Assembly: GCA_964023275.1 (NCBI GenBank)
Contig: OZ029919.1
Span: forward strand, 7,230,903-7,294,902
DNA from: Norana najaformis
Taxonomy: Eukaryota; Annelida; Clitellata; Crassiclitellata; Hormogastridae
DNA: 64,000 nucleotides
Reading direction: 5' to 3'
The translations under genes were made by a program, and so were the position numbers. Below, in pieces: positions 8,788 to 53,637 of the stretch (positions within the stretch are counted from its first letter, which is position 1; every line of letters starts with the position of its first letter). The notes below the pieces were generated by a model. That model did no database searches. It was given only the letters and a program-made list of their open reading frames with translations, and was not told the origin of the DNA.

Positions 8788-9004
8788 ATTTATGAATTCA
8801 CCTCAGAAGCATGGGTAGCTGGAAAAAGATAAGTTTTCAATTGTTTGTGAAATGAAATAAGAGAAAGAGAAGAACCCTCAAATCTGGAGGTATTGAATTC
8901 CATAGATGTGGACCAGCATATGAAAAGGCACGGAAGCCACATGTCTTTTTTTGGTAGGGTGGTACAAACAGTTGGCCAGTGGAGGTAGATCTTAAGTTGA
9001 TCGA
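8788..9004 (-). pseudogene. LINE family E ORF2 C-terminus
   Basis: On the minus strand this reads in frame through GQLFVPPYQKKTCGFRAFS and YAGPHLWNSIPPDLR before a stop at TTTCACAAACAATTGA. The A-G-P-x-L-W-N-S-(L/I)-P block is the typical C-terminal signature of CR1/L2-type LINE ORF2 proteins, downstream of the reverse transcriptase. The reverse transcriptase itself is missing: the copy is 5'-truncated and meets the tail of family D at 9005. Its own 3' end faces the 3' end of family A at 8786. Confidence 0.75.
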
Positions 9005-9626
9005 TCTAATCTATTGACTTCTGTAGCGCCGTTATCCTTATTCCTTAAGGCATTGATCAATGGTCGTTTAAAGTGAAGTCGTAATCAAAATCTTAATCCA
9101 TTGGAGAAGCCAGGTCGAAAACCTTTAGGTCGGAGAAACCAGAAGTTAGGCTACGATGGGTAAGCAAGTTGAAACAGATGAGTCTTAAGTTTAGACCTGA
9201 ATGACATCAATAAACTGACAGAAGGAACAGAACATGACAGCGAATTCCAAGGGCATGGACCAGCAGCCAAGAACACCCTAGACCTAACACTGTTCTGGTA
9301 CGAGGCATAAAAAGTCAGTGTCATAGGAATAGCTAGGCATCATCAGCATACAAGTAGTAGTCAAGAGTGCTGTCAGTAAATAGTGACGGGAGTGCAGTCG
9401 TATATTATCTAAACAGGAGTGCCCGCAGAACAGAACCTAGTGGAATGCCACAATTCAAGACAGTAGGTGCAGAAGTGAGTTGGTACATGTGAACTGACTG
9501 AGTGAGAGGGTGCAGTTAAGATGTGAACCAACGGAGAGCATGACTAAAAAGACCAAACCAATGTTCGAGTAGGTGAAGAAGTGTGACGTGATCAACAATA
9601 TCAAAAGTGGCAGACAGGTTTATCTT
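9005..9626 (-). pseudogene. Internally deleted LINE family D with reverse transcriptase motifs A, B and C
   Basis: Read on the minus strand from 9624 down, the frame gives NLSATFDIVDHVTLLHLLE (motif A, the aspartate of F-D), then after an in-frame TAA, NCGIPLGSVLRALL (motif B; the usual form is GVPQGSVLGPLL) at 9456-9420. At 9362-9339 comes YYLYADDA then TAG (motif C, Y-A-D-D). Only about 40 bases later the C-terminal signature AAGPCPWNSL appears (9283-9238), followed by SFRSKLKTHLFQLAYPS and a stop. The region normally separating motif C from the C-terminus, several hundred codons, is deleted. The 3' end is CAATGGTCG...GGCGCTACAGAAGTC with a TAGATTAGAT tail. The element is dead. Confidence 0.8.
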
Positions 9627-14417: not shown

Positions 14418-14745
14418 AATCTAATCTAATCTAAGAACTTTTATAGCACCACTGCAATAATGCTTAAAGGATCAGTCGATGGTCGCAGCTAAGCAAAATC
14501 ACCGTCCAAGCCAAATTCAGTGGTGAGTCCAGTCGAAAAGCCAAGGGGGAATCCCAGAGTCACAGCGATAGCCTATGGAGGAAATGAGTCAAGGAAGAGG
14601 TGAGTTTTTAGCTGAGGTTTGAAGGCCGAAACAGACTTTGCCGAGCGAACATTTGCCGGAAGAGAGTTCTAGAGTCTAGGGCCACCGAAAGAAAAGGCAT
14701 TAATGCACCACTTGCATTGTTAGCAACCAACGGTGCATCGCATTG
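14418..14745 (-). pseudogene. LINE family D-like ORF2 C-terminus and 3' end
   Basis: On the minus strand the frame reads NAFSFGGPRL, a TAG where the family has W, then NSLPANVRSAKSVSAFKPQL and KTHLFLDSFPP before a stop. This is the conserved CR1/L2-type C-terminal pattern G-P-x-x-W-N-S-L-P...L-K-T-H-L-F, with a single TGG to TAG change. The 3' end is CGACCATCGACTGATCC...GTGCTATAAAAGTTC followed by four copies of TTAGA. 5'-truncated. Confidence 0.8.
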
Positions 14746-17084: not shown

Positions 17085-17470
17085 TTTCAAGCCCTGGACC
17101 ACAGTTCTGAGGCCTTTTGTTGAATTTTGAAAGATTTACATAGCAGTCGGTTGTGTTACATTACAGCATTTAATGAATTCGGTAAAGTTTACGAACAACA
17201 TCCTTATGACTGCAATGTCTAGCTGCCTAGTTGTCTCAGAACATTTCCTATGCAGCTCGCATGATAAATATCTTTAAAAAGTGACTACCTTAATGCTTTG
17301 GTAAGTGTGGATGGTTGCCGTATTTTGCAAAAATAAACTCTGTTGTGGAGTTCTTTCCAGTCACGTACACACAATTCCTGGGTGTAAACAACTTGTAATT
17401 GCAGCTCATGAATTAGCCAACAGCAAGTTCCCGGAAAAGAGCACGCAGCTAGTCCATGCAGTCATAAAAA
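17085..17470. other. No recognisable gene
   Basis: A 69-codon plus frame at 17305-17514 has no domain. Confidence 0.3.
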
Positions 17471-17473
17471 CAT

Positions 17474-17640
17474 TGTGCTATACTTTAATGAACTCACTAC
17501 ATTTTGTAATGTAGTGTAGCTTATGTAGTGTAATGTAAGTTACCAAAGCTTCACAATGTGCTATACTTTAACGAACTCACTACATTTTGTAATGTAGTGT
17601 AGCTTATGTAGTGTAATGTAAGTTACTAAAGCTTCACAAT
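17474..17640. repeat. 83-bp tandem duplication with a 9-bp hairpin
   Basis: Two copies starting tgtgctatacttta at 17474 and 17557 differ at only two visible positions. Each contains cactacattttgtaatgtagtg, written here as arms CACTACATT and AATGTAGTG around TTGT. Confidence 0.9.
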
Positions 17641-17644
17641 GCCT

Positions 17645-17905
17645 CACCAAAGCTGCATCAGGAAGTCGTTATTCCCCAGACTTACCATTATTTTGCATGG
17701 TCATCTGAATGTCTTTCTTTGTTCATATCTAGGACTAGAACTATTCTTGATGAGCTGGCTTTATCAGTTGCTGGACCTAAATTTTGGAACTCCCTCCCTG
17801 TGTCTGTTCGTTCTGCTCAGTCGCTTCTTTCATTTCGTTCTCAACTTAAAACTTACCTGTTTCAAACTGCTTAACCACCTTAAGCTGCCTCTGTGTCTAG
17901 TGGGT
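17645..17905 (+). pseudogene. LINE family G ORF2 C-terminus (single-copy form of the satellite segment)
   Basis: From 17715 the plus strand reads LFISRTRTILDELALSVAG, then GPKFWNSLPVSVRSAQSLL and SFRSQLKTYLFQTA before a stop. This is the conserved LINE ORF2 C-terminus. Bases 17671-17732 (attcccc..., then ggtcatctgaatgtctttct) align with 25518-25566 and with the unit and right flank of the 49.9-52.4 kb satellite on the other strand. Downstream, AAACTGCTTAACCACCTTA and GCTGCCTCTGTGTC match the other flank of that satellite. It is therefore the unexpanded relative of the satellite locus. 5'-truncated. Confidence 0.8.
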
Positions 17906-18645: not shown

Positions 18646-18755
18646 GTGGTAGAGGAGGAGGTGGTAGTGGTGGTAGAGGAGGAGGTGGTAGTGGTGGTAG
18701 AGGAGGAGGTGGTAGTGGTGGTAGAGGAGGAGGTGGTAGTGGTGGTAGAGTTGGT
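18646..18755. repeat. 24-bp minisatellite, GGA/GGT-rich
   Basis: Four to five copies of a unit of the type agaggaggaggtggtagtgg (first 20 of 24 bases). The 24-base period keeps frames open on both strands, giving glycine-rich and tyrosine/histidine-rich chance proteins. Confidence 0.9.
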
Positions 18756-25104: not shown

Positions 25105-25600
25105 ATAGCGCCATCAGCTGATGCTTAGTCATTAGATAGTGGCGCTTAATAAATGTAGAACTGATAATATTAGCAATCTGCCCAGTTTCATGGAAACAGA
25201 TGGAAGGAAGGTCTGGAATTTTGCAAATGAGGTGGGCCTTTCACAAAGCTATTCATTTTGTCAAATGCACAAGGAATCAACCAGTGGCACATCAGAACTA
25301 AGCAGTAATCAGGTAATTTCCCAAAAGCTCAGTCCACAGAGACGGAGAGACGACCTACGGTGAAAAACCAGGTGAGAAAGGTAAGTCTTTAGCCGACACC
25401 GACATAACATAAGAGACCAAGACGAATGAACAGATGTGAGGAAAGAATCCCAAAATTTTGGTCCATCAATCAAAAATGGTCATTCACCATGAACCGCTAT
25501 TGTTCACGATACAATCAGAAAAAGGCAATCAGACGACCAAGTTGAATGGCTCTAAGTTTGGGGAATAAGGATTGATTTTAAAAGTAGCATTCTTTGGTAT
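25105..25600 (-). pseudogene. LINE family G ORF2 C-terminus and 3' end
   Basis: The minus strand reads IDGPKFWDSFLTSVHSSWSL, then LCRCRLKTYLSHLV, which is the G-P-x-F-W-N-S-L...R-L-K-T-Y-L LINE signature. Upstream in LINE sense, bases 25566-25518 (ATTCCCC...GGTCGTCTGATTGCCTTTTTCT) align with the satellite unit and its flank at 52.4 kb and with 17671-17720. The 3' end has a 7-base stem, AGCGCCA (25107-25113) with TGGCGCT (25140-25146). Confidence 0.7.
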
Positions 25601-38082: not shown

Positions 38083-39789
38083 TAATAATAATAATAATAA
38101 TAATAAGACAATTTATATAGCGCCGTAACACGGCCGAGGCCGAAGAAAAGGGCGCTGTACATAAGTTCAGGCGACAATAGAAAATTAACTACAGTCATAC
38201 GATAATTTAAATAGAAACGTTTTAAGCCCTTTCTTAAAGTTATCCAAGGAGGGAGCATTCTTCACGTGGTCGGGAAGGCTATTCCACGCAGTGGGTCCGG
38301 CAATCGAGAAAGAGCTTTCGCCGAACCGCGTGGTAGACCTTGGGACCTGCAGATGGTTCCTCGACGAGGACCTCAGCCGACATCTGTTCTCATTATCTCC
38401 GACTCGAATACAAAATTCGGAGATGTAGTCTGGCATGAGGCCATTCAGTGCCTTGAAAGTGATCAGACATAGTTTGTACGTTATCCGTTGAGGAACGCGC
38501 AGCCAGTGCAGATTGTCGCGCAGCAGGTCACTAATATGATCGGATGGTGTCCGGCCGTAGATGACACGTGCTGCAGAGTTCAGCACTGACTGCACCCGAT
38601 CTAGCTGGCAAGCAGGCAGCCCCGATAGTAGGCTGTTGCAGTAGTCAACCCTGGAGACTATGAAGCTGTTGACCAAGGTGATGGCTGTCGAGGTAGGAAT
38701 CAGTCTGCGGATGGACTTTATTCGACGCATTTGATAGAAACAGCCCCGAACAAGTTGACTCACATGGGCCGACCTGGTCAAACAGCTGTCGAAGTGTACT
38801 CCAAGGTTGCGGATGGTGTCGGCTGGTCGAACTACTGCCTCGTTGACGGCGAATGAACTGTCGTTGAGTAGATGCTGACGTCGGAGAGTGGTGCACCATA
38901 GGAACTCAGACTTCGATGGATTGAGTCTGAGACGGTTGGAAGCCATCCACTCCGAAATGCGTTCAATACACAGCAGCACTCTCTGTTTCAACTCCGTGGT
39001 TTGCGTTGGCTCACAGAAGAAGTAGAGTTGTGTATCGTCCGCATAGAAGTGGTGGAGGAGACCATGGGCTTGTATAATCTTCTCCACGTCAGCTGTGTAT
39101 AGCACGAAGAGGAGGGGCCCGAGGACTGATCCCTGTGGGACGCCACAGGTGACCAGTCTAGGTGGTGTTGCCTCCCCGGCCAAGTGGACAGATTGAGTGC
39201 GGCCTCTGATATAGGATTCAAGCCAACTCAGCACTTCATCCTTGACTCCGAACGTGCGCGACAGACGCTCGAGCAGGATGTCATGGTCAACAGTGTCAAA
39301 TGCAGCCGACATGTCAAGAAGTGACAGAAGTGCTAGTTGGCCCGAATCGATGGCGTTAACTAAATCAGAGAAAACTTTAAGAAGTGCCGTTTCGGTGGAG
39401 TGGCCGCGCCTGTATGCAGACTGGAATCGAGGGAGAAGGTGCGATTCAGACAGGTACTCGGTGAGCTGTTGGTGAGCAATCCGCTCGAGCACTTTTGAGA
39501 TGAAAGTTAAGTTGGAGACCGGTCTGAAATTCGCAGGCGACGACTCATCGATTCCAGCTGTTTTAGGAAGTGGTCTGACCATAGCATGTTTCCATTTTGA
39601 TGGAAAGCGGCCGGTGGCAAATGAACAGTTAAACATCCGGGCAATAAAATTGGCCAACAGTGGAGCCGCCTCCTTCATCAACCATGCCGGAAGTATGTCA
39701 AGGGGGCACTGTTTCGCAGGTGACAATAGAATTACCTTGACGACATCTTCTGCTGTGATCGGTCTGAACTCGTGCATGCCCGGGGATGA
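38083..39789 (-). mobile_element. 5'-truncated CR1/L2-type LINE with intact reverse transcriptase
   Basis: The element reads on the minus strand. Its 5' end, at about 39789, falls inside ORF2, where TATA/CATA-rich flank begins, so the endonuclease domain and ORF1 are missing. Its 3' end is an ACAGCGCCC...GGCGCTATATAAATTGTC end with a (TTA)n tail at 38083-38106. A stem AGCGCC/GGCGCT (38119-38124 with 38153-38158 region) sits in the 3' end. Target-site duplication was not found. A shorter copy of the same 3' end is at 18948. Confidence 0.9.
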
Positions 39790-39990
39790 GTATATGTTTA
39801 CACATACAGATATATTATACGTATAAATATACATATATAGATATATGTGTCTGTAATCAGATACTAGTGTGGCCATAATGCAGATAGATATTATTGCTTT
39901 AGGTAGATCGTAAAGTTCGCCAACTGTGAATGTTTCAAAACTTTCAGTTTGGATTTTACGATAAATAGATAAATTGTAAAGGAAGACCAT
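38185..39990 (-). CDS. LINE ORF2 fragment: reverse transcriptase and C-terminal domain
   Basis: The 601-codon open frame has a LINE-derived part from about residue 69 (SSPGMHEFRPITAEDVV); residues 1-68 are flank read through in frame. In order: finger/palm start with SPANFRPVSNLTFISKVLER (150s-160s), motif A SLLDMSAAFDTVDH (223-236; aspartates 226 and 232), motif B GVPQGSVLGPLLF (283-295), motif C FYADDTQLY (315-323; the Y-A-D-D catalytic aspartates), thumb and connector with RLRLNPSKSEFLW (353-365) and IRNLGVHFDS (393-402), then the C-terminal signature FSIAGPTAWNSLPDHVKN (561-578) and FKKGLKTFLFKL (585-596). This is the CR1/L2 group pattern. A full ORF2 has an N-terminal endonuclease of about 250 residues, absent here. 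There are no stops or frameshifts, so the copy is young, but without a promoter or endonuclease it cannot move by itself. Confidence 0.9.
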   Translation of the reverse strand: MVFLYNLSIYRKIQTESFETFTVGELYDLPKAIISICIMATLVSDYRHIYLYMYIYTYNISVCVNIYSSPGMHEFRPITAEDVVKVILLSPAKQCPLDILPAWLMKEAAPLLANFIARMFNCSFATGRFPSKWKHAMVRPLPKTAGIDESSPANFRPVSNLTFISKVLERIAHQQLTEYLSESHLLPRFQSAYRRGHSTETALLKVFSDLVNAIDSGQLALLSLLDMSAAFDTVDHDILLERLSRTFGVKDEVLSWLESYIRGRTQSVHLAGEATPPRLVTCGVPQGSVLGPLLFVLYTADVEKIIQAHGLLHHFYADDTQLYFFCEPTQTTELKQRVLLCIERISEWMASNRLRLNPSKSEFLWCTTLRRQHLLNDSSFAVNEAVVRPADTIRNLGVHFDSCLTRSAHVSQLVRGCFYQMRRIKSIRRLIPTSTAITLVNSFIVSRVDYCNSLLSGLPACQLDRVQSVLNSAARVIYGRTPSDHISDLLRDNLHWLRVPQRITYKLCLITFKALNGLMPDYISEFCIRVGDNENRCRLRSSSRNHLQVPRSTTRFGESSFSIAGPTAWNSLPDHVKNAPSLDNFKKGLKTFLFKLSYDCS

Positions 39991-40140
39991 GACTGGTGAA
40001 TAGACAATATCAATGAATTACATGAAATTCGTTTATGTCAATGAAGACATAACAAGATTTGGACAAAACATGAGAAAAGCACTAGCTGTGACAATGACCC
40101 AAAAAATGGAGGTCATTTATTTGCACCAGTTGCCTCCCTC
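39800..40140. other. AT-rich flank of the LINE
   Basis: 39800-39850 is TATA/CATA-type simple sequence. No gene. Confidence 0.4.
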
Positions 40141-45261: not shown

Positions 45262-45385
45262 GGTGGTGGTGGTGGTTGTGGTCGTAGTCGTGGTGGTGGT
45301 GGTTGTGGTCGTAGTCGTGGTGGTGGTGGTTGTGGTCGTAGTCGTGGTGGTGGTGGTTGTGGTCGTAGTCGTGGTGGTGGTATTG
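45262..45385. repeat. 27-bp GGT-rich minisatellite, 4 units plus a partial
   Basis: Units of GTGGTGGTGGTGGTTGTGG followed by TCGTAGTC start at 45263, 45290, 45317 and 45344. The V-rich and P/R-rich frames are artefacts. Confidence 0.95.
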
Positions 45386-49543: not shown

Positions 49544-49739
49544 TGTGTGGAGACTTCTTTTTGACACACAGACGTTTCTGAATAATGCTCATTCCCATTG
49601 CGCTATTCATTACATGCAGTTTTTAAACCTTGTGGGATGTGGTTTCGTTTTGCATTCAGCCACGGGTGTGAAGTGCTATTTTTATTAATTAGTAACTGAT
49701 ATCGCGTTGATATCACAAAAGATATGAACCGGTGGCACA

Positions 49740-52440
49740 CCAAAGCCAAGCCACTCTATCAAGTAAATATCCAGCTCAGCCCAATAAGACAGAAAGGCAG
49801 CCTATGGTGGATAAGCAGTTTAGAAAAAGCTTAGTCTTAAGTTGTGAATGAAATGAAACGAGCAACTGAGCAGAGCGATTAGATATAGAAAGAGAGTTTC
49901 AACATCTAGCAACCGAAAAAGCCCAATCACTAAGATGACCTGGTATGGCAAGAGAAAGACATTCAGATGACCTGCTATGGCAAGAGAAAGACATTCAGAT
50001 GACCTGCTATGGCAAGAGAAAGACATTCAGATGACCTGGTATGGCAAGAGAAAGACAATCAGATGACCTGGTATGGCAAGAGAAAGACATTCAGATGACC
50101 TGGTATGGCAAGAGAAAGACATTCAGATGACCTGCTATGGCAAGAGAAAGACATTCAGATGACCTGGTATGGCAAGAGAAAGACAATCAGATGACCTGGT
50201 ATGGCAAGAGAAAGACATTCAGATGACCTGGTATGGCAAGAGAAAGACATTCAGATGACCTGCTATGGCAAGAGAAAGACATTCAGATGACCTGGTATGG
50301 CAAGAGAAAGACATTCAGATGACCTGCTATGGCAAGAGAAAGACATTCAGATGACCTGGTATGGCAAGAGAAAGACAATCAGATGACCTGGTATGGCAAG
50401 AGAAAGACATTCAGATGACCTGCTATGGCAAGAGAAAGACAATCAGATGACCTGGTATGGCAAGAGAAAGACAATCAGATGACCTGCTATGGCAAGAGAA
50501 AGACATTCAGATGACCTGGTATGGCAAGAGAAAGACATTCAGATGACCTGGTATGGCAAGAGAAAGACATTCAGATGACCTGGTATGGCAAGAGAAAGAC
50601 ATTCAGATGACCTGGTATGGCAAGAGAAAGACAATCAGATGACCTGGTATGGCAAGAGAAAGACAATCAGATGACCTGGTATGGCAAGAGAAAGACAATC
50701 AGATGACCTGGTATGGCAAGAGAAAGACAATCAGATGACCTGGTATGGCAAGAGAAAGACATTCAGATGACCTGGTATGGCAAGAGAAAGACATTCAGAT
50801 GACCTGGTATGGCAAGAGAAAGACATTCAGATGACCTGGTATGGCAAGAGAAAGACAATCAGATGACCTGCTATGGCAAGAGAAAGACATTCAGATGACC
50901 TGGTATGGCAAGAGAAAGACAATCAGATGACCTGGTATGGCAAGAGAAAGACATTCAGATGACCTGGTATGGCAAGAGAAAGACATTCAGATGACCTGGT
51001 ATGGCAAGAGAAAGACAATCAGATGACCTGGTATGGCAAGAGAAAGACAATCAGATGACCTGGTATGGCAAGAGAAAGACATTCAGATGACCTGGTATGG
51101 CAAGAGAAAGACAATCAGATGACCTGGTATGGCAAGAGAAAGACATTCAGATGACCTGGTATGGCAAGAGAAAGACAATCAGATGACCTGGTATGGCAAG
51201 AGAAAGACATTCAGATGACCTGGTATGGCAAGAGAAAGACAATCAGATGACCTGGTATGGCAAGAGAAAGACATTCAGATGACCTGGTATGGCAAGAGAA
51301 AGACAATCAGATGACCTGGTATGGCAAGAGAAAGACAATCAGATGACCTGGTATGGCAAGAGAAAGACAATCAGATGACCTGGTATGGCAAGAGAAAGAC
51401 AATCAGATGACCTGGTATGGCAAGAGAAAGACATTCAGCTGACCTGGTATGGCAAGAGAAAGACAATCAGATGACCTGGTATGGCAAGAGAAAGACATTC
51501 AGATGACCTGGTATGGCAAGAGAAAGACATTCAGATGACCTGCTATGGCAAGAGAAAGACATTCAGATGACCTGGTATGGCAAGAGAAAGACATTCAGAT
51601 GACCTGGTATGGCAAGAGAAAGACAATCAGATGACCTGGTATGGCAAGAGAAAGACAATCAGATGACCTGGTATGGCAAGAGAAAGACAATCAGATGACC
51701 TGGTATGGCAAGAGAAAGACATTCAGATGACCTGGTATGGCAAGAGAAAGACATTCAGATGACCTGGTATGGCAAGAGAAAGACAATCAGATGACCTGGT
51801 ATGGCAAGAGAAAGACAATCAGATGACCTGGTATGGCAAGAGAAAGACAATCAGATGACCTGGTATGGCAAGAGAAAGACAATCAGATGACCTGGTATGG
51901 CAAGAGAAAGACAATCAGATGACCTGGTATGGCAAGAGAAAGACAATCAGATGACCTGGTATGGCAAGAGAAAGACAATCAGATGACCTGGTATGGCAAG
52001 AGAAAGACAATCAGATGACCTGGTATGGCAAGAGAAAGACATTCAGATGACCTGGTATGGCAAGAGAAAGACAATCAGATGACCTGGTATGGCAAGAGAA
52101 AGACATTCAGATGACCTGGTATGGCAAGAGAAAGACATTCAGATGACCTGGTATGGCAAGAGAAAGACAATCAGATGACCTGGTATGGCAAGAGAAAGAC
52201 ATTCAGATGACCTGGTATGGCAAGAGAAAGACAATCAGATGACCTAGTATGGCAAGAGAAAGAGAATCAGATGACCTGGTATGGCAAGAGAAAGACAATC
52301 AGATGACCTGGTATGGCAAGAGAAAAACAGTCAGATGACCTGGTATGGCAAGAGAAAAACAATCAGATGACCTGGTATGGCAAGAGAAAGACAGTCAGAT
52401 GACCTGGTTGAATTTTGATAAATCTGGGGAATGAGGATTG
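49740..52440 (-). pseudogene. LINE family G ORF2 C-terminus interrupted by a 32-bp satellite
   Basis: Left of the satellite (49740-49931) the minus strand reads LSDWAFSVARC, stop, NSLSISNRSAQLLVSF, then HSQLKTKLFLNC, which is the LINE signature also seen at 17715-17875 (GPKFWNSLPVSVRSAQSLL). Its 3' part AAACTGCTTATCCACCATA and GCTGCCTTTCTGTC matches 17866-17905. Right of the satellite, 52405-52440 (TTGAATTTTGATAAATCTGG and GGAATGAGGATTGATTTTAA) matches 25540-25580 of another G copy. So both flanks belong to one LINE and the array lies inside it. Confidence 0.8.
49932..52404. repeat. 32-bp satellite, 77 full units
   Basis: The unit is cagatgacctggtatggcaa followed by GAGAAAGACAWT. Starts run from 49932 to 52396 in exact 32-base steps (2464 = 77 x 32), so no unit has an insertion or deletion. 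Two sites vary: GGTATGG or GCTATGG, and ACATTC or ACAATC. GCT units are concentrated in the left 20 or so units. The last five units on the right have extra changes (ctagtatgg, gagaatc, aaaaacag). 32 is not a multiple of three and no long frame spans it. Confidence 0.98.
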
Positions 52441-53145
52441 ATTTTAAGTATTGTGGTTGGCCAGGGTTTTTAGTGCTGTGTAAACTTAAGCTCAGTTGGA
52501 AATAAATCATGATCTAAAACCCAACAGAGACTTGATCAAAGAAACTTGTACCAGAATCAGGGGCAGCATCCAAGCTCCACGGAAAATCAAGGAATTCACA
52601 GAACTGTTTACATTGTCCGGATTTGTCATAAAACAGCCAGAAAAGCACGGAGCAAAGGGCATAAAATCGGTTAAGTTTTCTAGGATAACAGACCTTATGG
52701 CCGATTGATTGCTGCCAAGATATGTTAAGCCTAACGAGTCTCGTTGCAGTTTTGTGCTGTGTCCGTTGCGAGCTTTTTCCACTGATCATTGTTTATCAAG
52801 TGGATGTTGGAGACAGATGATTTGGAATGACTTGTCCTAGAATTGCTTGTTTTGCTCAGTCCGGTCTGAGAAATCTGCTTCAATCAGTGACGTGAAAGCG
52901 CTTTTTGTAATGTTTACTACATAGATTGTACCGTTCCAATAATTTTAGTCTTTATTATAATATTTTGCCTCTGTTTGACTTGAACATGGATCATTTTAGT
53001 TGATTCGACGCATGTTTGATTCTAAGCATTACTATGAATAGCATATTGCCAGTGTTTTTTTAACATTGAATATTATTGTTGTCATCATCAACAGCATCTT
53101 CATCATCACCATCATCATGTCATTGTTGACCATATGCTATTATTT
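52441..53145. other. No recognisable gene
   Basis: Three overlapping frames of 70-91 codons at 52496-52789 on both strands, with no domain. Confidence 0.3.
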
Positions 53146-53149
53146 ATTT

Positions 53150-53637
53150 GTCATTGTTTTTGACATCATGGTAATATTATACATTGTTGACATCATGGCA
53201 TTAATTGTCATTGTTGACATCTTGGTATTATTTGTCATTGTTGACATCTTGGTATTATTTGTCATTGTTGACATCTTGGTATTATTTGTCATTGTTGACA
53301 TCTTGGTATTATTTGTCATTGTTGACATCTTGGTATTATTTGTCATTGTTGACATCTTGGTATTATTTGTCATTGTTGACATCTTGGTATTATTTGTCAT
53401 TGTTGACATCTTGGTATTATTTGTCATTGTTGACATCTTGGTATTATTTGTCATTGTTGACATCTTGGTATTATTTGTCATTGTTGACATCTTGGTATTA
53501 TTTGTCATTGTTGACATCTTGGTATTATTTGTCATTGTTGACATCTTGGTATTATTTGTCATTGTTGACATCTTGGTATTATTTGTCATTGTTGACATCT
53601 TGGTATTATTTGTCATTGTTGACATCATGGTATTATC
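53150..53637. repeat. 27-bp minisatellite, about 18 units
   Basis: Unit tgtcattgttgacatcttgg followed by TATTATT. Sixteen regular units start every 27 bases from 53206 to 53611; two degenerate units precede at 53152 and 53182. The unit is a multiple of three, so frames of 211, 177 and 162 codons stay open (LVLFVIVDI, SLLTSWYYL and MSTMTNNTK repeats). No flanking conserved coding sequence supports any of them. Confidence 0.95.

Follow-up and report, generated by a model that had tools for sequence, protein, structure and literature searches.

A 77-unit minisatellite derived from a LINE ORF2 segment in the annelid Norana najaformis

With a 32-bp sequence repeated head to tail between two stretches of a single retrotransposon copy, the locus considered here raises the question of how a tandem array comes into being inside a LINE, i.e., what was duplicated, by which route, and whether this happened more than once. 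It lies in a window of 64,000 nucleotides (G000:C7:7230903-7294902) from an assembly of 608 Mb in 17 contigs; all counts below come from this one assembly, where repeat counts are lower bounds. The original prediction was of a 77-unit satellite born by amplification of a LINE coding segment. While the 77 full units of 32 bp and their LINE origin are borne out, the latter by collinear flanks, by LINE sequence at all 20 dispersed unit sites fetched and by the finding of no other array, "satellite" overstates what is one array of 2.5 kb at one locus, for which minisatellite is the proper term. This array very probably grew in place from an ORF2 segment within one inserted LINE copy, by a duplication almost free of homology and then by growth driven by homology.

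The array and its two flanks

TRF delimits an array of 2,476 bp with period 32, 77.4 copies, 97% matches and a score of 4581 (Table 1). On the minus strand, 77 full units, which read GGTCATCTGA[T/A]TGTCTTTCTCTTGCCATACCA in LINE sense, are followed by a partial unit, AGGTCATCT. The form with A at position 11, originally given as the unit, is in fact a slight minority (38 units have T, 37 A and 2 C), and position 30 is C in 68 units and G in 9, variation at all other positions being rare. Both the A form of position 11 and the G form of position 30 become commoner toward the 3' end of the array (Spearman 0.35, p 0.002 and 0.36, p 0.001, respectively). Six of the seven rarer changes (four of the five distinct ones) fall within units 1-5, at the 5' edge, as expected at an array edge under unequal exchange. 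Units differ from each other by a mean of 2.7% in pairwise comparison. No clear higher-order structure was found in the array. Its longest repeated block spans 7 units, a length attained by 167 of 300 shuffles, and of 24 lags tested, 3 pass p 0.05 without correction; as such, individual exchange events are not visible. Each of the six frames of the array contains 26-30 stops, and the window gave no Rfam match at the gathering threshold.

Table 1. Coordinates of the array, of its junctions and flanks, and of related LINE features (window positions unless a copy is named)
Feature	Position	Strand	Description and basis
Tandem array	49933..52408	-	77 full head-to-tail 32-bp units and a partial unit; TRF, sequence, unit list, variant counts
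5' LINE flank	52409..52507	-	ORF2 C-terminal part; strong to 52463 (blastn), to 52507 (tblastn)
ACC directly ahead of first unit	52406..52408	-	Sequence and relatives in alignment
Truncated last unit	49933..49941	-	AGGTCATCT joined to LINE TAGTGATTGGGC; sequence, alignment
3' LINE flank	49677..49932	-	ORF2 end and 3' UTR; genome search and BLAST
Second window LINE copy	17666..17897	+	One unit; 88% identical to L042 (BLAST)
Third, older window LINE copy	25259..25578	-	One diverged unit; 72% identical to L042 (BLAST)
LINE-internal two-copy duplication	L030 1669-1761	script orientation	TRF
LINE-internal two-copy duplication	L039 5201-5864	script orientation	TRF
LINE-internal two-copy duplication	L041 5349-5480	script orientation	TRF

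The flanks belong to one LINE copy and are collinear with it, in the LINE order that had been proposed. Both were aligned by pairwise BLAST with the same 4.9-kb stretch of a young copy, L042. Leaving out the unit, 54 bp of the 5' flank (52463-52410) match it at 87% identity (E 6.8e-14); for the 3' flank (49935-49677), identity is 73% over 272 columns (E 1.8e-39). Taken by itself, the part of the 5' flank beyond 52463 reaches a score of 38, inside the range of the shuffled controls, whose maximum is 42. The order before duplication was read from an alignment of 29 fetched copies from outside the locus, turned to one strand, that also included both sides of the array and the other two LINE copies of the window; relatives of the 5' flank were drawn from copies fetched by other searches. 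In relatives retaining the region, ...ATTCCCCAGACTTACCATTATTCAACC (or ...TTCTGCA) is followed by AGGTCATCTGATTGTCTTTCTCTGGTCATACC and this by TAGGACTAGAACTGTTCTTGGTGAACGGGC; the array locus has the left side of the relatives, 77 units, the truncated unit and then TAGTGATTGGGC. In most units the last bases, ahead of the AGG of the following one, are ACC, as they are in the sequence preceding the first unit, which gives a 3-bp microhomology at the duplication junction. At the 3' junction, about 41 nt comprising the remainder of the last unit and some LINE sequence are absent, TCT being common to both sides as read from the alignment; while the LINE 3' side does align there, the continuation into the LINE C-terminus that was first described is not seamless. 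The distance from ATTCCCC to GGTCATC (start to start) is 28 bases at the array and at 17671, as predicted, and also 28 in the 25.5-kb copy, for which 27 had been given and where the motif reads GGTCGTCTGATTGCC.

The region is rich in tandem arrays, at least 12 of period 18-83 being present in window 1-64000. When 12 window arrays were compared with the masked window and 54 loci, a test confined to these sequences and insensitive for short units, LINE matches to the unit were obtained only for the array at 49933-52408; the units of the arrays at 18646 and 45263 matched L026, and that at 45263 also one further place in the window. An 83-bp unit present in 2.1 copies at 17470-17641 ends about 25 bp ahead of the LINE copy at 17666. 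At 53144-53636, a 27-bp unit is repeated 18.1 times, 96% alike, with long frames open on both strands because the period is divisible by 3.

The LINE family and the dispersed units

When the genome was searched with the 3' flank, 2,263 candidates were obtained. Scores were computed for 40, and identity is 76-83% for the 39 that lie outside the locus. Searched with up to 3 mismatches, the unit gave 675 matches (313 + 362; 0 for the reversed-pattern control), all 77 array units among them, which leaves 598 elsewhere. Copies were fetched from both sources, i.e., 29 from the 3'-flank candidates and 20 from the unit matches, 49 in total. All 20 dispersed unit sites fetched, from 34 listed among the 598, contain the LINE; the unit thus has its homologue in part of a dispersed transposable element, and the unrelated contexts that would have spoken against the original prediction were not encountered in these 20. 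Over the LINE parts that match L039, 16 of the 19 other unit-fetched copies reach 99% identity or more, L040 and L041 are 91-96% identical to it, and L058 gave no match. Stop-to-stop frames of 1,078 codons or more are present in five of the 20, and the near-identical copies together with these long open frames indicate a recently active family.

The intact ORF at L042:3348-6668 encodes 1,106 residues (P0001) with RVT_1 (PF00078, 1.8e-35), Exo_endo_phos (PF03372, 5.6e-10) and Exo_endo_phos_2 (PF14529, 1e-9) domains, i.e., the apurinic-like endonuclease and reverse transcriptase of an APE-type LINE, and its C-terminal motif looks similar to that of the group CR1, L2, Rex1. Upstream of the endonuclease domain, residue 148 of P0001 (L042:3348-6668) marks a 2A/StopGo-like DVEINPGP; work by Odon in 2013 is said to have described 2A sequences in APE-type LINEs. 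The window also holds a 610-aa open frame of another LINE at 38185-40017 (-), 42% identical to P0001 over 534 aligned positions in tblastn, and more ORF2 pieces of related LINEs at 9157-9623, 14576-14698 and 8816-8968 (-).

The unit begins at codon 1046 of the L042 ORF, about 60 codons before the end of ORF2. The copy bearing the array is older, its coding flanks being 78% identical to L042 (151/193) and the best-scoring sampled relative of its 3' flank, L021, matching at 117 of 139 positions, i.e., about 16% different. This host is a diverged, 5'-truncated fossil, so that the segment in the array is coding by descent only; the 32-bp unit shifts the reading frame.

The original prediction called for units to be counted per copy, and the counts are none beyond the first in the 49 fetched LINE copies, two in the copy L064 and 77 in the array. 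L064 (G000:C8:25830700-25831060; TRF period 32, 2.0 copies, 93% matches) contains exactly two units and, within the mismatch limits searched, is the one place outside this locus with a junction between units; no other unit array was found. Junctions between units were searched in several forms. For CTTGCCATACCAGGTCATCTGA, 82 matches were obtained, namely the 77 of the array and 5 elsewhere at 3 mismatches (control 1), none of the latter tandem. For CTGGTCATACCAGGTCATCTGA, 4 of 81 matches lie off the array (control 1), i.e., the tandem L064, the LINE copy L065 without a second unit, and L066 and L067 without a LINE match. CTGGTCATGCAAGGTCATCTGA gave 14 matches (control 4), the exact one, L064, which was fetched, and 13 at 3 mismatches. 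Paired cores 32 bp apart gave 117 matches (control 11); the 100 listed comprise 76 in the array, L064 and 23 others, which are not unit-like between the cores. The core followed by any triplet and AGGTCA, with up to 3 mismatches, gave 82 matches (control 0), i.e., 75 in the array, L064 and 6 others. Five of these 6 were judged from their matched letters only, four having the native single-unit context and one, on C13, being a lone unit in which a short stretch after CATACC is deleted; the sixth, L068, was fetched and is a single unit with a deletion beginning immediately after CATACC. Altogether 10 junction-like off-array matches were fetched (5/5 for CTTGCCATACCAGGTCATCTGA, 4/4 for CTGGTCATACCAGGTCATCTGA and 1/6 of the new ones of the any-triplet search), and L064 is the 1 tandem among these 10.

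A laxer TRF run on the LINE parts of the 49 copies (55,003 bases) likewise returned no period-32 repeat, and only weak repeats of period 15-27 with 63-78% matches. Old, heavily mutated dimers would be missed by the junction and TRF searches. Within the mismatch limits of the junction searches, the assembly holds no second array and one dimer; instead of the many arrays, or tens of kb and more, of a satellite family, it has one array of 2,476 bp. Other parts of the LINE are duplicated in two copies in 3 of the 49 (46 bp in L030, 331 bp in L039 and 66 bp in L041; Table 1), possibly the seeds of future arrays.

A probable route from one duplication to 77 units

A 5'-truncated APE-type LINE copy would first have inserted at the locus. 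Later, a 32-bp stretch of its ORF2 may have been duplicated in situ by local break repair or template switching, with the 3 bp of homology given by ACC, and the resulting 32-bp homology would then have allowed growth to 77 units and their uniformity through unequal exchange or slippage. A single microhomology deletion, at TCT, could have trimmed the 3' edge. The outcome would be a neutral single-locus minisatellite that serves neither the LINE nor, on what was observed, the host. That units differ by 2.7% and the 3' flank by about 16% from L021 indicates turnover of the array after insertion. Unequal exchange would also agree with growth by way of the 32-bp homology and with the greater variation at the 5' edge.

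As for the first step, the sequence shared at the initial duplication is 3 bp in the array and 1 bp in L064. A start by slippage between direct repeats of 5-10 bp flanking the segment, according to the Haber-Louis model, is unlikely; although relatives have ACC at both segment ends, and near-matching ACCAGG/ACCTAGG, ungapped sharing stops at these 3 bp and 1 bp, and no flanking repeat of 5-10 bp was found. The longer GGTCAT repeats in the segment are spaced 22 bp, not 32, and match instead the 22-bp deletion of L015. With shared sequence below 5-10 bp, end-joining break repair or template switching appears the better guess.

It could also be supposed that a LINE lineage already possessed two or more units and that the array copy retrotransposed with its repeats, since L064 has the same 32-bp segment twice. 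The two copies, nonetheless, are not near relatives. L064 ranks 37/53 by flank score for the array and the array 44/53 for L064, over equal stretches, which makes two duplication events likelier than one. The breakpoints are compatible but the upstream triplet differs, the junction being CAT|GCA in L064, with GCA on both units, and CAT|ACC in the array. Further dimers were not seen either among the matches examined, which for CTGGTCATGCAAGGTCATCTGA were limited to the exact one, and inheritance of a ready-made repeat is thus very improbable. An assembly artefact, i.e., a collapsed or falsely expanded repeat, is scarcely credible, for although the unit number is that given by the assembly, variants at positions 11 and 30 are interspersed and trend along the array, and the flanks are collinear LINE sequence.

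Growth in place from a single duplicated segment, the reading preferred here, has to accommodate one observation contrary to its simplest form. Compared with the young LINE, the commonest unit has 31/32 positions identical, whereas the coding flanks of the same copy are 78% identical. In five copies with flank identity of 78-83% (L020, L010, L030, L016, L014), unit identity is 75-88%, so that the array unit has retained more of its sequence than expected from simple drift; the chance of such preservation is roughly 0.4-2% by hand arithmetic. This comparison used 38 of 51 rows, 13 with too little flank or unit coverage being dropped, L033 (unit 66%) and W25 (unit 72%) among them, and L058 (flank 66%, unit 94%) was set aside, having been fetched via its unit. 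Either the copy was intact there at the time of duplication, or its sequence was held by homogenisation.

The repeated duplication of the same 32 bp is the most interesting part of the case. Since each junction triplet is that copy's own upstream triplet, both duplications fit a start at -3 and an end at +29 in LINE coordinates. By hand, 3 duplications in 49 copies extrapolate to roughly 140 among the 2,263 candidates; with starts and lengths assumed evenly scattered, one of these would match the array in start and length with a chance of about 1-3%. As the search targeted this junction, the shared breakpoints are no more than suggestive. They raise the possibility, which seems less likely than not, of a built-in seed site, i.e., a fixed ORF2 stretch of 32 bp prone to break and duplicate between identical end points in copies not closely related, repeatedly planting dimers able to grow. 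Besides the start at -3 and the end at +29 that the array and L064 share within their ambiguity, L015 is broken here, by its deletion between its two GGTCAT, as is L068, by its deletion after CATACC; L064 and L068 came to light in searches aimed at exactly this junction, so the count is biased. A hairpin was considered for the segment, which is flanked by the inverted repeat CAAGGT/ACCTTG in the young LINE, and was rejected, 109 of 200 shuffles folding as well as the DNA (z 0.22).

Comparison with known systems

A literature search made without the organism name found nothing on this array. With 598 other unit matches, a two-unit copy and a 77-unit copy in one genome, the case is unusually complete; relatives fix the order before duplication to the base. 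It separates the first step of satellite birth, a duplication with almost no homology, from later expansion, and offers a concrete place to ask why one LINE stretch seems to duplicate more than once. The conversion of transposable elements into tandem repeats, including from LINE ORF2, is already published (PMC9659126, PMC3389668), which makes this locus a further case of a known route.

According to the human survey of Ahmed and Liang (2012), repeats derived from transposable elements make up 23% of minisatellites and 5,747 of 5,932 clusters are single-locus; known initiation models likewise explain only 6%, most starts lying outside slippage models, and the hotspots named are regions within AluS and LTR12, that of LTR12 being ascribed to repeats pre-existing in the element (PMC3389668). 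The present array resembles these repeats in having grown in place within one element copy, and differs in host and LINE and in its 77 units, many more than the means of 2.3-2.4 reported for Alu (PMC3389668). In the Haber-Louis model, the origin of a minisatellite needs flanking direct repeats of 5-10 bp (PMC6947457, PMC3389668); here too a short segment was apparently duplicated and then expanded over its own homology, but in place of such repeats there are 3 bp. Monomers related to LINE ORF2 are also those of chicken HinfI (CR1), Phodopus PROsat and seal Pvc20 (L1), which are classed as satellites, unlike the one array of 2.5 kb described here (PMC9659126). Satellite-like arrays of Pacific oyster Helentrons similarly lie inside a mobile element, but Helentrons are reported to carry and spread them, whereas no other sampled LINE copy has an array here, bar one dimer (PMC7492417).
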